From Candidatus Cyanaurora vandensis (GTDB lineage Bacteria > Cyanobacteriota > Cyanobacteriia > Gloeobacterales > Anthocerotibacteraceae), in NCBI RefSeq assembly GCF_013285555.1, contig NZ_JAAXLT010000154.1:1-36800 (forward strand): 36,800 nucleotides of DNA. The letters run 5' to 3'. The translations under genes and the position numbers were made by a program. The notes under the pieces are model-generated. The model made no database searches. It saw nothing but the letters and a program-made list of their open reading frames with translations, and was not told the DNA's origin. Positions within the stretch are counted from its first letter, which is position 1, and every line of letters begins with the position of its first letter. This document shows, piece after piece, positions 14,621 through 27,138 of the stretch.

Positions 14621-15661
14621 CTACTTAATCGCCCCGCCGCAGGAACTCCCGCTCCCAGCAGTACAGCCAAAACAGTGGCGGTCGGTGCGGATTTGACGGT
14701 CGGCGAGGAGACGGGGGTTGAAGTCGCGGAGGTGGAGGCCTTCGGCTCCCTGGCCCTGGGTCTCTAGATCTAGCATTTGGTTGAAATCACAATCGAAAAC
14801 CCGCCCGTCCCAACTGATGGAGAGGGTATTACGGCACATCAGACCACTGACCGTGGCGGGGTTGAAACGGTTAACAAGTAACTCCATGTACTGCTGCAAA
14901 TGACCCGCTTGTGCCAACCATTCCAAGTGACGGCTAATCGGCATATTGTTGAGGGCAATCAGACGGTCAAATGTCACCCCGTAATTATTGAGGAGGGCCG
15001 CTTGCCATTCCTTCTCCATACAAGCTTGGCTACCACTCAGACCCGTCCCCGTCGGGTTCGCCATCAGAGTCAGCCGGCGCTGGGGATCGCCTTGACCGTA
15101 ACCCGCGCTATTCAGCCGTTGGAGGGCCGTGATGGATTTGTTGTAGGTCCCATCGCCGCGCTGACTATCGGTCTCGCGCTCTTGATAGTGGGGTAGTGAA
15201 CAAACCACTTCCACCCCCCGCGCCGCAAACCACTCCGGCAGGTCCTCATAGTGCGGAGCTAGCAAGATCGTCAGGTTACAGCGGTCAATCACCTGTTTCC
15301 CCCGTTGCACGCACTGGTCCACCAGATAGCGGAAATTGGGGTTCATCTCCGGGGCACCGCCCGTGATGTCTACGGTGTGGGCGGTGGTCTGGTCTAGGGC
15401 TTCCAAACAGAGGTCTACGGTGGCGCGGTCCATATTCTCGACCAGCCGATCCGGGGCACTGTCCACATGGCAATGGCGACAGGTCATATTACAGAGCTTA
15501 CCGATATTGATCTGGAAGATTTCCAACCGCGCCGGGGTCAAGGGCTGTCCCAGAGTCTCCGCAAAATTACCCTGGGGGAGAATCAGACTATTGAGTAGGG
15601 CTAGTTGGTGTTGGGGTCCGCTCAGGGGCGAGCCACGCCGGAGAAGAGAGGTTGGCAGCAT
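14621..15661 (-). CDS. arsS: radical SAM protein ArsS (arsenosugar biosynthesis)
   Basis: A 346-residue radical SAM enzyme with the cluster motif CNMTCRHCH (Cys57, Cys61, Cys64), VDITGGAPEMNP as the SAM-binding GGAPE segment, and a C-terminal Cys-rich end (CFGCTAGSGSSCGGAI) typical of the ArsS group. Homologues in some bacteria have selenocysteine in the tail; here all positions are Cys codons. The enzyme transfers the adenosyl moiety of SAM to dimethylarsenite in arsenosugar formation. No arsM or arsR is adjacent. It diverges from the EamA transporter gene with 92 bases between starts. Confidence 0.88.
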   Translation of the reverse strand: MLPTSLLRRGSPLSGPQHQLALLNSLILPQGNFAETLGQPLTPARLEIFQINIGKLCNMTCRHCHVDSAPDRLVENMDRATVDLCLEALDQTTAHTVDITGGAPEMNPNFRYLVDQCVQRGKQVIDRCNLTILLAPHYEDLPEWFAARGVEVVCSLPHYQERETDSQRGDGTYNKSITALQRLNSAGYGQGDPQRRLTLMANPTGTGLSGSQACMEKEWQAALLNNYGVTFDRLIALNNMPISRHLEWLAQAGHLQQYMELLVNRFNPATVSGLMCRNTLSISWDGRVFDCDFNQMLDLETQGQGAEGLHLRDFNPRLLADRQIRTDRHCFGCTAGSGSSCGGAIK

Positions 15662-23843: not shown

Positions 23844-26024
23844 ATGACCCCAGCCGCCCTTGCTGCCGCAACTAACTACACCCTCCCAGAATGGTTGAGC
23901 GTGAGTTTGCGCGAGAAACCGGCAGGGCTCGTCAGTCGAGCTTTTTTGTATGCCGAAGCCCTGCACCGGGGACAGTTTCGCAAGTCTGGTGAACCCTACA
24001 TTATTCATCCAGTCCAGGTGGCGACCTTACTGAAGGAATTGGGTTCGGATCCAGCGATGGTGGCAGCGGGTTTTTTGCACGACTTATTAGAAGATACTGA
24101 AGTCACGGCTGAGGAACTAGAGCAACAGTTCGGGGCGGAAGTCCGCCAACTCGTTGAGGGGGTCACGAAGCTCTCTAAGTTCAGCTTTTTCAGTAAAAAA
24201 GAACAGCAGGCGGAGAATTTCCGCCGGATGTTCCTGGCGATGGCGCAAGATATCCGGGTAATTGTCGTCAAACTTGCGGACCGCCTGCACAATATGCGGA
24301 CCCTCGAACACTTATCGACTGAACAGCAAGAGCGTATCGGGCGCGAGACGATGGATATTTTCGCGCCCCTTGCTAATCGCTTGGGGATTTGGCAGTTCAA
24401 GTGGGAATTAGAGGATCTGTCTTTCAAATACTTGATGCCCCAGGAATATCAACAAATGCGGGCCTTAGTCGTCCAGAAACGCACCGAACGTGAAGAGATG
24501 ATCCGCGAAATGGTGCATGTTTTCAAAGAAGAATTCCTCCGTATCAGCGTAGGGGCTGAGGTAACGGGGCGACCCAAACACCTCTGGGGCATCTACCAGA
24601 AGATGCAACGCCAGGGTAAAGAATTCCACGAGATTTACGATATCTCGGCGGTGCGCGTCATCGTCCATGACGACAATATCAACGATTGTTACCGGGTCCT
24701 TGGGGTCGTCCACGAACGTTTCCGGCTGATTCCCGGTCGCTTCAAAGACTATGTGGGCCTCCCCAAACCCAACGGCTATCAGTCCTTACACACAGCAGTC
24801 CTCGGTCCCACTAAAACTCCCGTGGAAGTCCAGATCCGCACCCAGGTCATGCACAAAGTCGCTGAACTGGGAGTAGCAGCCCACTGGAAATATAAAGAAG
24901 TCGGTTCCGTCGCCCTATCTGACAAAGACCAAAAGTTCACTTGGCTCAGGCTCCTACTGGACTGGCAAAAAGACCTCCAGGATGGTCAAGAATACCTCCA
25001 ATCGCTCAAAGAAGACCTCTTCGAGTCCGAGGTCTATGTTTTTACGCCTAAGGGTGATGTCTTAGAATTACCCCGGGGCGCGACGCCTGTGGACTTTGCC
25101 TACCGGATTCACACGGAGATTGGCAATCACTGTATCGGGGCCAGGATTAACGGCCGGCTCGTCGCCCTAGAATCCACGTTACATAACGGGGACATCATTG
25201 AGATCCTGACGGCTAAAAACGCTCACCCCAACCTAGACTGGCTGAGTTTTGTGGTGAGCAGTGCCGCCAAAAACCGCATCCGCCAGTGGTACAAAAAAGA
25301 ACGCCGCGATGAGAATATCATCCGGGGCCGTCAGATCCTCGAACGAGAGTTGGGCCGCGCCAATCTCGACCAGATCCTGCGCTCCGAGACCATGGTTAAA
25401 ATCGCCCAACGCCTCAACTACACTACGGTTGAAGATACCCTTGCCGCCCTGGGGTATGGCGAGATTACGGCTTCAGCCATCCTCAACAAACTCCAAGAAC
25501 GTGCCCGCGAACAACAAAAACTCATCCCTAACCTGCCTAGCGAAGTCAACCACACCGAACCCGTCGTTGGGATTGAGGGCCTGCCCTATCACCTGTGTAA
25601 ATGCTGTACACCCCTACCAGGGGACGGGATTATCGGGGTCGTCACCCGGGGAGCCGACAACCGAGGGATTAGCATCCACCGGCAAGACTGTGACAATGTG
25701 TATAAGGTCAACCCCGACCAACTGATCCCGATCCGCTGGAATCCCAACGGCAAGCTCCGGCCCCCCACCTATCCGATTGAGATCCAAGTCGAAGTCATTG
25801 ACCGGGTGGGCGTAATGAAGGATGTCCTGGACCGCTTGGCCTCTGACCGGATCAATGTTCGTAACGCCTCGGTCAAGACCTTTGCCGACCAAACGGCTGT
25901 AATTGACCTCTGTATCGAAATCGCCAACAAAGACCAATTGGAACACGTCACCCACCAAATGCTCAAGATTGCCGATGTGGTCGGAGTCCGTCGTCACCAA
26001 GCCCGCCAAGGGAAGTCGGCTTAG
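23844..26024 (+). CDS. rel: bifunctional (p)ppGpp synthetase/hydrolase
   Basis: A 726-residue Rel enzyme. The HD hydrolase domain has HRGQFRKSGEPYIIHPVQVA and His79-Asp80 in FLHDLLEDT, then KLADRLHNMRTLEH. The synthetase domain has GRFKDYVGLPKPNGYQSLHT at about 297-316; its RFKD loop is the RxKD form of bifunctional enzymes rather than the ExDD form of monofunctional RelA. A TGS domain (VYVFTPKGDVLELPRGATPV) is followed by a Cys-containing conserved region (HLCKCCTPLPGDGI) and a C-terminal ACT domain. It controls the stringent response. Its TAG interlocks with the stop of the opposing gene in TTAG. Confidence 0.97.
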   Translation: MTPAALAAATNYTLPEWLSVSLREKPAGLVSRAFLYAEALHRGQFRKSGEPYIIHPVQVATLLKELGSDPAMVAAGFLHDLLEDTEVTAEELEQQFGAEVRQLVEGVTKLSKFSFFSKKEQQAENFRRMFLAMAQDIRVIVVKLADRLHNMRTLEHLSTEQQERIGRETMDIFAPLANRLGIWQFKWELEDLSFKYLMPQEYQQMRALVVQKRTEREEMIREMVHVFKEEFLRISVGAEVTGRPKHLWGIYQKMQRQGKEFHEIYDISAVRVIVHDDNINDCYRVLGVVHERFRLIPGRFKDYVGLPKPNGYQSLHTAVLGPTKTPVEVQIRTQVMHKVAELGVAAHWKYKEVGSVALSDKDQKFTWLRLLLDWQKDLQDGQEYLQSLKEDLFESEVYVFTPKGDVLELPRGATPVDFAYRIHTEIGNHCIGARINGRLVALESTLHNGDIIEILTAKNAHPNLDWLSFVVSSAAKNRIRQWYKKERRDENIIRGRQILERELGRANLDQILRSETMVKIAQRLNYTTVEDTLAALGYGEITASAILNKLQERAREQQKLIPNLPSEVNHTEPVVGIEGLPYHLCKCCTPLPGDGIIGVVTRGADNRGISIHRQDCDNVYKVNPDQLIPIRWNPNGKLRPPTYPIEIQVEVIDRVGVMKDVLDRLASDRINVRNASVKTFADQTAVIDLCIEIANKDQLEHVTHQMLKIADVVGVRRHQARQGKSA

Positions 26025-26341
26025 TTTCTCGAATTACCCGAGAACTCCGAGTGAGATAACTCTATAATTTTGCCGTCAGCTATGTCTTTCCCCTCCCATA
26101 GCTTAATTGGCTTGCCTTTAAGCAAGTATGGCAATGCAGCTTGCGGGTTTAAGAGTTTAATAGGTATTTTATACGTCTCACCAAAATCTATTAATTTGCC
26201 AGATAGGATTAGTCTACAGTCGAACATCATAGGACCTACAACAAGTGGGCAACTATAGAAATCGCCCCGGATAGGTTTTTGCTTACCGCCCGCCCTAGCG
26301 GTTCTAAATCTAACTTCTATGATTGCGTCTGGCTGGTACAT
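26021..26341 (-). CDS. EF-Tu-barrel-like small protein, possible immunity partner
   Basis: A 106-residue protein (DAIIEVRFRTARAGGKQKPI, DFYSCPLVVGPMMFDCRL, LPYLLKGKPIKLWEGKDIA) that resembles small uncharacterised beta-barrel proteins related to EF-Tu domain II/III. Its ATG follows directly on the stop of the gene at 26342-26677 (TGA-ATG), so the two are coupled. Base composition is clearly lower in GC than the rel and aroQ genes (hand count 39% over 26041-26220). If the upstream gene is a toxin domain, this would be its immunity or antitoxin gene; that is inference. Confidence 0.5.
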   Translation of the reverse strand: MYQPDAIIEVRFRTARAGGKQKPIRGDFYSCPLVVGPMMFDCRLILSGKLIDFGETYKIPIKLLNPQAALPYLLKGKPIKLWEGKDIADGKIIELSHSEFSGNSRN

Positions 26342-26677
26342 TCATCTACTTGGTAGCGGCAGAAAGTTTAGAACCTGGGGCACCAAGCTGAGTAGGTTGC
26401 TATCTGGCACGACAATAGCTGGAATACCCCTGTCTACAAAAATCATATCAAGCTTACGCAATAAGCTGTTTGAGATTTTTGTTTTAACGAGCGTGTAGGG
26501 AGGGTCACCGAATCCATAATAGGCTTGTTTAGCATAGGAGGCAGCGCCTTTGACGGTCATGGAGAAATATTTACCCTCAGCGGAACCAAGGTTACGAAAC
26601 CTACGGTAGAGTAAGATATCGCCTAACTTTTCAGGCTTAACTACACGGTACAGTGTGAATCCCCTTCTGTACTTCAC
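26342..26677 (-). CDS. small protein resembling a polymorphic-toxin C-terminal domain (ADP-ribosyltransferase-like?)
   Basis: A 111-residue ORF: GFTLYRVVKPEKLGDILLYR, RNLGSAEGKYFSMTVKGAAS, YAKQAYYGFGDPPYTLVKTK, VDRGIPAIVVPDSNLLSLVP. The order LYRVV, then GKYFS-T with a helix of A-x-x-YAKQ, then strands, recalls toxin domains of Rhs/CdiA-type proteins with an ADP-ribosyltransferase-like fold. I cannot assign a definite catalytic triad. The start is GTG at 26677, two bases after the aroQ stop. GC is low compared with neighbours. It carries no secretion or delivery domain. Confidence 0.45.
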   Translation of the reverse strand: MKYRRGFTLYRVVKPEKLGDILLYRRFRNLGSAEGKYFSMTVKGAASYAKQAYYGFGDPPYTLVKTKISNSLLRKLDMIFVDRGIPAIVVPDSNLLSLVPQVLNFLPLPSR

Positions 26678-26679
26678 TC

Positions 26680-27138
26680 TTATTGCGGAGGCGTTAAGGT
26701 CTGCAAGTGTTCCACCAAGGCCTGTAGGCCCAAGCGGTAACTGTTGGCCCCGAAGCCTGCGACCTGACCGACAGCAATGCCAGCAATATGGGAATGGTGC
26801 CGGAAGCTCTCGCGTCGGTAGATGTTTGAGAGGTGGACTTCTACGGTGGGAATACCTACGCCACTCAGGGCATCCCGGATCGCCAAGCTGGTATGGGTGT
26901 AAGCCGCTGGGTTAATGAGGATACCCGCAAACACGCCCATCGCTTGATGGATCGCGGTGATGAGTTCGCCCTCGTGGTTGGACTGGTAACAAACTATCTT
27001 GACGCTGAGTTGGGCCGCTTCAGTTTCCAGTAGGGCGTTGATCTGCGCCAGGGTCGTAGACCCGTAGACTTCCGGTTCGCGCTGGCCCAATAGATTGAGG
27101 TTGGGACCGTGGAGGACAAGGACCTGCATGATAGGCAT
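26680..27138 (-). CDS. aroQ: 3-dehydroquinate dehydratase, type II
   Basis: A 152-residue type II dehydroquinase of the shikimate pathway. The motifs are [20 protein letters not shown] with catalytic Tyr25, [44 protein letters not shown] with the catalytic His, and GFGANSY. The dodecameric enzyme converts 3-dehydroquinate to 3-dehydroshikimate. The two small low-GC genes follow directly on the same strand. metK lies divergently, sharing the upstream region. Confidence 0.96.

Follow-up and report, generated by a model that had tools for sequence, protein, structure and literature searches.

We studied a two-gene insertion in Candidatus Cyanaurora vandensis, a cyanobacterium of the Gloeobacterales, within a stretch of 36,800 nucleotides (contig NZ_JAAXLT010000154.1, positions 1 to 36,800, assembly GCF_013285555.1) that is referred to below as the window. 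The two genes lie on the minus strand between rel and aroQ, the toxin gene (gene 1) at 26342..26677 and the immunity gene (gene 2) at 26021..26341, and they very probably represent an orphan polymorphic-toxin/immunity cassette, horizontally acquired by the cyanobacterium. Gene 1 would be a bare C-terminal toxin domain of the kind that terminates Rhs or CdiA-like delivery proteins elsewhere, and gene 2 its immunity protein, predicted to be a single barrel like domain III of EF-Tu. An earlier note, written from the letters of the window alone, had described a free-standing toxin/immunity pair here, and indeed no delivery domain is attached to the toxin of the window and no rhs or cdi gene was seen nearby.

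Homologues and pairing of the two genes

In a homologue scan with one genome per species, relatives of gene 1 were recovered at 13 loci in other phyla (38-62% identity); the records bear the labels Riflebacteria, Proteobacteria, Akkermansiaceae and Flavobacteriales. Most of these homologues are the final ~105 residues of a larger protein. Where the upstream sequence is long enough, at eight loci, the toxin domain forms the C-terminus of a larger protein of Rhs or CdiA-like (DUF637) type, with Rhs_assc_core upstream of it at L001, L002, L004, L005, L006 and L008 and a CdiA-type DUF637 domain at L003 (a weak match) and L011 (a clear one). At L013, just the tail of the Rhs core, read from the translation, precedes the toxin domain. 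The proposal that gene 1 is an Rhs/CdiA toxin domain is therefore borne out by those homologues in which the domain is joined to an Rhs_assc_core or DUF637 protein, and homology to the C-termini of delivery proteins is what a toxin from a polymorphic toxin/immunity cassette displays.

The immunity gene of such a cassette lies directly downstream of the toxin and is conserved with it, and this too was found. A homologue of gene 2 directly follows the toxin at 12 of the 13 loci, that is at every locus where the DNA continues, the thirteenth (L007) sitting at a contig end; homologues thus do co-occur as neighbours, as the earlier note had asked. When whole genomes were searched with a gene 2 profile, each of the 12 genomes with such a pair had exactly one copy, which lay at the toxin locus every time, and 368 further genomes of the class to which the L008 organism belongs had none. 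As gene 2 was found in these genomes at toxin loci only and adjoins the toxin downstream, the two genes move together, as parts of polymorphic toxin systems. Homologues of 38-62% identity, with the second gene adjoining and in unrelated phyla, also make the locus more than a chance arrangement.

The toxin of the window retains 31 of the 34 columns that are invariant among its relatives; in a comparison of non-synonymous with synonymous substitution rates (dN/dS), the synonymous sites were saturated. At L012 (4950-5320) and L013 (4515-5300) the toxin frame is broken but the immunity gene after it remains open, which looks as though the toxin decays first.

The architecture around some of these homologues deserves mention. 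The toxin homologue of L010 is short and looks secreted, having a leader of its own. Three successive short open reading frames (ORFs) with similar leaders ending '(G/A)E(Y/C)SDFGR(W/C)' occupy L010:3539-5312, one of no known family, one an EndoU nuclease (PF14436) and one the ADP-ribosyltransferase (ART)-like toxin itself; the trio looks like an array of toxin cassettes having their own signal peptides and no Rhs protein. The toxin-bearing Rhs protein of L005 (L005:3-5306) has a Tc-like architecture, with further matches to the TcdB mid/N region (PF12256) and to FG-GAP repeats.

Predicted fold of the toxin

Neither protein of the pair matches a Pfam or NCBIfam model, and searches of PDB sequences with the window proteins, by single sequence and by profile, returned nothing significant. 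The toxin was likewise not found in the viral contigs, plasmids and phages searched. Structure prediction was more informative. The AlphaFold model of the toxin (mean predicted local distance difference test (pLDDT) 81, predicted template modelling (pTM) score 0.75) was compared by Foldseek with the PDB, and its matches belong mostly to the ADP-ribosyltransferase superfamily: Tpt1/KptA, TreTu, RhsP2, the diphtheria catalytic domain and PARPs (best match E 0.017, probability 0.95-0.97). Against a viral library, most matches of the same model were uncharacterised phage proteins, with DarT or PARP-like annotations on a few others, and the best match (E 4.9e-4) was an uncharacterised protein. Four of 12 family members matched PF18760 (ART-PolyVal) weakly and locally, with E from 0.05 over ~25 residues, under the curated cut-off. 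From the alignment, the invariant R11, Y37 with S/T39, and D82 are candidate ART motif residues (R-S-E, H-Y-E or variants).

Together, the model and its matches give moderate support to an ADP-ribosyltransferase fold for gene 1; the ART-like layout described in the earlier note gains from these fold matches and from PF18760, short of proof. With such a fold, which is the most likely one, the toxin would use NAD+ to modify a cytosolic target.

Predicted fold of the immunity protein

For gene 2, the AlphaFold model (pLDDT 89, pTM 0.78) points strongly to EF-Tu. Its top 50 PDB matches by Foldseek are all EF-Tu, as chains or as fusions containing EF-Tu, with probability 1.00, E from 1.7e-5 and template modelling (TM) scores of 0.67-0.77, and the ~100 residues that align have the size of one of the three domains of EF-Tu. 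The predicted structure thus has the fold in question, and the choice of domain III comes from a Pfam match and a profile comparison. One member of the gene 2 family matches PF03143 (GTP_EFTU_D3) across its length (residues 10-99, E 0.003); the curated cut-off is not reached by the family, whose best member scores 18.2 bits vs 27, and the window protein gives no match. In a profile-profile comparison, the gene 2 family scored 21.4 over 83 columns against an EF-Tu domain III profile built from 14 genomes, vs a maximum of 17.0, over short stretches, among 200 column shuffles and 10.8 for the toxin profile, which served as controls. Since the HHalign probability for the same pairing is low (9-10%), the sequence comparisons are insufficient by themselves and the fold carries the claim.

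An EF-Tu domain III fold for gene 2 is, on this predicted structure, strongly supported. The EF-Tu barrel proposed earlier is in this way narrowed to one domain, and the Foldseek comparison put forward at that time pointed, with moderate support, to a toxin-like (ART) fold for one protein and, strongly, to a barrel (EF-Tu) for the other. In the part of the literature that was searched, we found no paper on an immunity protein built like EF-Tu domain III.

We infer that the most likely action of the barrel is to bind and block the toxin, perhaps by occupying a toxin surface that would otherwise meet EF-Tu. The predicted fold suggests EF-Tu as the protein bound or modified by the toxin, and a decoy role for the immunity protein. 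In its fullest form, this proposal holds that the immunity protein is a domesticated EF-Tu domain III serving as a target decoy, and that the toxin recognises its substrate, EF-Tu, by domain III; we offer this tentatively, as a possibility less likely than not. Because there are other Rhs toxins of ART fold whose substrate is NAD+ or RNA, EF-Tu is put forward here as a candidate target.

Layout and origin of the locus

Both minus-strand ORFs and the TGA-ATG junction between them are as the earlier note had them. The toxin gene starts with GTG and encodes 111 amino acids (aa), the immunity gene starts with ATG and encodes 106 aa, and at their junction (26339..26344, minus strand) TGA is followed by ATG with no gap, so that translational coupling is possible. 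Upstream, the aroQ stop is separated by 2 bases from the toxin GTG (26675..26682, minus strand, TAAGAGTG). The flanking genes proved to be those proposed: aroQ (26680..27138, minus strand) encodes an intact type II 3-dehydroquinate dehydratase (TIGR01088, E 2e-61), and rel (23844..26024, plus strand), which is convergent with the pair, an intact RelA/SpoT family protein (TIGR00691, E 8e-256). The stop of gene 2 overlaps that of rel, and the insert of 657 bases occupies the entire interval from the aroQ stop to the rel stop with zero spare sequence. Promoter and terminator scans of the locus gave nothing beyond chance, and a rel terminator hairpin within the end of the immunity gene is weak (z -1.4). 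Searches for flanking repeats, as the mark of a mobile element, returned short imperfect matches only.

The guanine and cytosine (GC) content of the insert is 43.8% vs 55.3% for the window, and among all 657-base segments across the stretch (mean 55.3%, standard deviation 2.8%) it is the lowest; the low GC reported earlier is thus real, the figure of about 39% being a sub-count. At third codon positions, GC is 0.48 in gene 1 and 0.43 in gene 2, and 0.63-0.68 in rel, aroQ and metK. Neither gene was found in 385 other genomes of the phylum (386 searched, including its own), and no second copy of either is present in its own genome. We conclude that the pair was horizontally acquired, because it is absent from these 385 genomes, has a single copy in its own genome and deviates in base composition. 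In the nearest relatives checked, rel and aroQ are unlinked, so the insertion site may be a rearrangement breakpoint, and these relatives offer no empty site for direct comparison.

Elsewhere in the same genome, RHS repeats are present on two contigs, where RHS-type genes run off the contig ends (proteins of 1256 aa on C226 (L044) and 785 aa on C112 (L045), with C-termini beyond the contig end), and a complete Rhs gene with a different toxin is possible. A search of this genome for the TPS (FHA-type) domain gave no match, yet the control gave none either. In keeping with a cyanobacterial host, the window also encodes Ycf48, BtpA, cyanophycinase and the cyanobacterial chorismate lyase. It further encodes a radical SAM protein of the arsenosugar biosynthesis ArsS family at 14621-15661 on the minus strand (TIGR04167, E 8e-122).

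Alternative explanations and significance

Several points weigh against the reading of the locus as a cassette with an ART toxin aimed at EF-Tu. The toxin model has no PDB match reaching E 0.001, with TM-scores of 0.4-0.6, so the ART assignment is made by the convergence of weak matches; catalysis is predicted, its candidate residues coming from an alignment, and EF-Tu as the target follows solely from the fold of the partner. Beside the presumed motif II, in the motif YF[ST]T[ST], the window toxin has Met vs Thr in all relatives, a change that might lower activity. Moreover, the GTG of gene 1, the sole ATG/GTG/TTG start candidate ahead of the domain, lacks a clear ribosome-binding site; gene 1 may be translated through coupling to aroQ, or be silent with gene 2 left as an immunity gene. 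That start and the Thr-to-Met change also favour the idea that the immunity gene alone matters, the toxin being a decaying untranslated remnant and gene 2 being kept against competitors that deliver the toxin. This special case of an orphan cassette, which overlaps our preferred reading, appears rather unlikely, as the toxin keeps an open frame through the whole domain and nearly all the invariant columns.

A domesticated intracellular toxin-antitoxin system, in which an expressed toxin is restrained by the barrel protein and has a role in stress or phage defence, would agree with the compact operon of two tightly joined genes lacking a delivery domain, with the intact and conserved state of both ORFs, and with the DarT-annotated phage ART among the viral-library matches of the toxin model. 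Most type II toxin-antitoxin operons have an order other than toxin-first, whereas Rhs and contact-dependent inhibition (CDI) loci are toxin-first, as is the pair studied here. As the relatives are, in addition, effector/immunity pairs of delivery proteins and no recurrence among the related cyanobacteria searched speaks for long-term retention, we regard such a system as improbable. A further alternative concerns the mechanism only and is compatible with an orphan cassette: the barrel would be functionally unrelated to EF-Tu, a small beta-barrel plugging the active site of an ART-fold toxin that acts on NAD+, RNA or another protein. ART-fold Rhs toxins are known as an NADase (Tne5, PMC13285283) and an RNA modifier (RhsF-CT, PMC13324451), and for such toxins occlusion of the active site by the immunity protein has been modelled or demonstrated. 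The likeness of gene 2, however, is to EF-Tu specifically, in all its top fold matches and in the weak domain III sequence match, and we judge a plug of this kind to have a little under an even chance.

We therefore place the orphan cassette first, its likely benefit being retained immunity, and a true toxin-antitoxin role lower; of the two options left by the earlier note, a captured immunity cassette fits better than an intracellular toxin-antitoxin system. In this host, where the toxin has no delivery domain, the pair would most likely provide retained immunity and a cassette able to recombine onto a delivery protein. Orphan toxin/immunity cassettes are an already known kind of system, within which the pair is an unnamed family spread across several phyla and without a Pfam or NCBIfam model; the window copy stands at a distance from every recognisable delivery gene, and the family turned up nowhere else among the genomes of its phylum that were searched. 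The EF-Tu-like antidote adds interest to the pair: if its likeness to domain III reflects decoy action, one could guess the target of the toxin from the antidote, something seldom feasible. Immunity would then come about by target mimicry, through a free copy of the docking surface, in a toxin family without a database model.

Comparison with known systems

In Rhs and CDI systems, a toxin is delivered into neighbouring cells and an immunity gene protects kin (PMC3482391; PMC9086364), and the relatives described here presumably work in this manner. The closest likeness is to orphan CdiA-CT/CdiI and standalone polymorphic toxin cassettes (PMC3482391; PMC9086364), in which a delivery-less toxin domain, homologous to complete toxins elsewhere, is followed by an immunity gene; known orphans, however, usually lie beside a complete cdi or rhs locus, whereas the window pair lies between cyanobacterial housekeeping genes. 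RhsP2/RhsI2 (PDB 7rt7) is an Rhs C-terminal ART toxin with an immunity protein, with TM ~0.5 and no sequence similarity to the window toxin in the PDB searches. TreTu/TriTu (PDB 7zhl, 7zhm) resembles the pair in its ~110-aa Rhs C-terminal toxin and, going by the toxin model, in an ART-like fold (Foldseek probability 0.6-0.87), but it has no sequence similarity to the window toxin (phmmer and profile vs PDB) and TM is 0.4-0.5.

EF-Tu itself links these systems. For TreTu, an ART toxin of Rhs type, ADP-ribosylation of EF-Tu has been described (PMC10469887); EF-Tu enters there as the target, and in the window pair through the predicted fold of the partner. Some CDI toxins depend on EF-Tu as a cofactor, and one CdiI makes contact with domains II and III of EF-Tu (PMC9086364). 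In view of these cases, an EF-Tu domain III barrel as immunity protein would fit a decoy of the target or of a cofactor. Compared with EF-Tu, the immunity protein shares the predicted fold of domain III (PF03143; probability 1.00) and, in one member, a weak full-length sequence match, but it is a single detached domain of 106 aa, with 12-25% identity and with neither the GTPase domain nor domain II.
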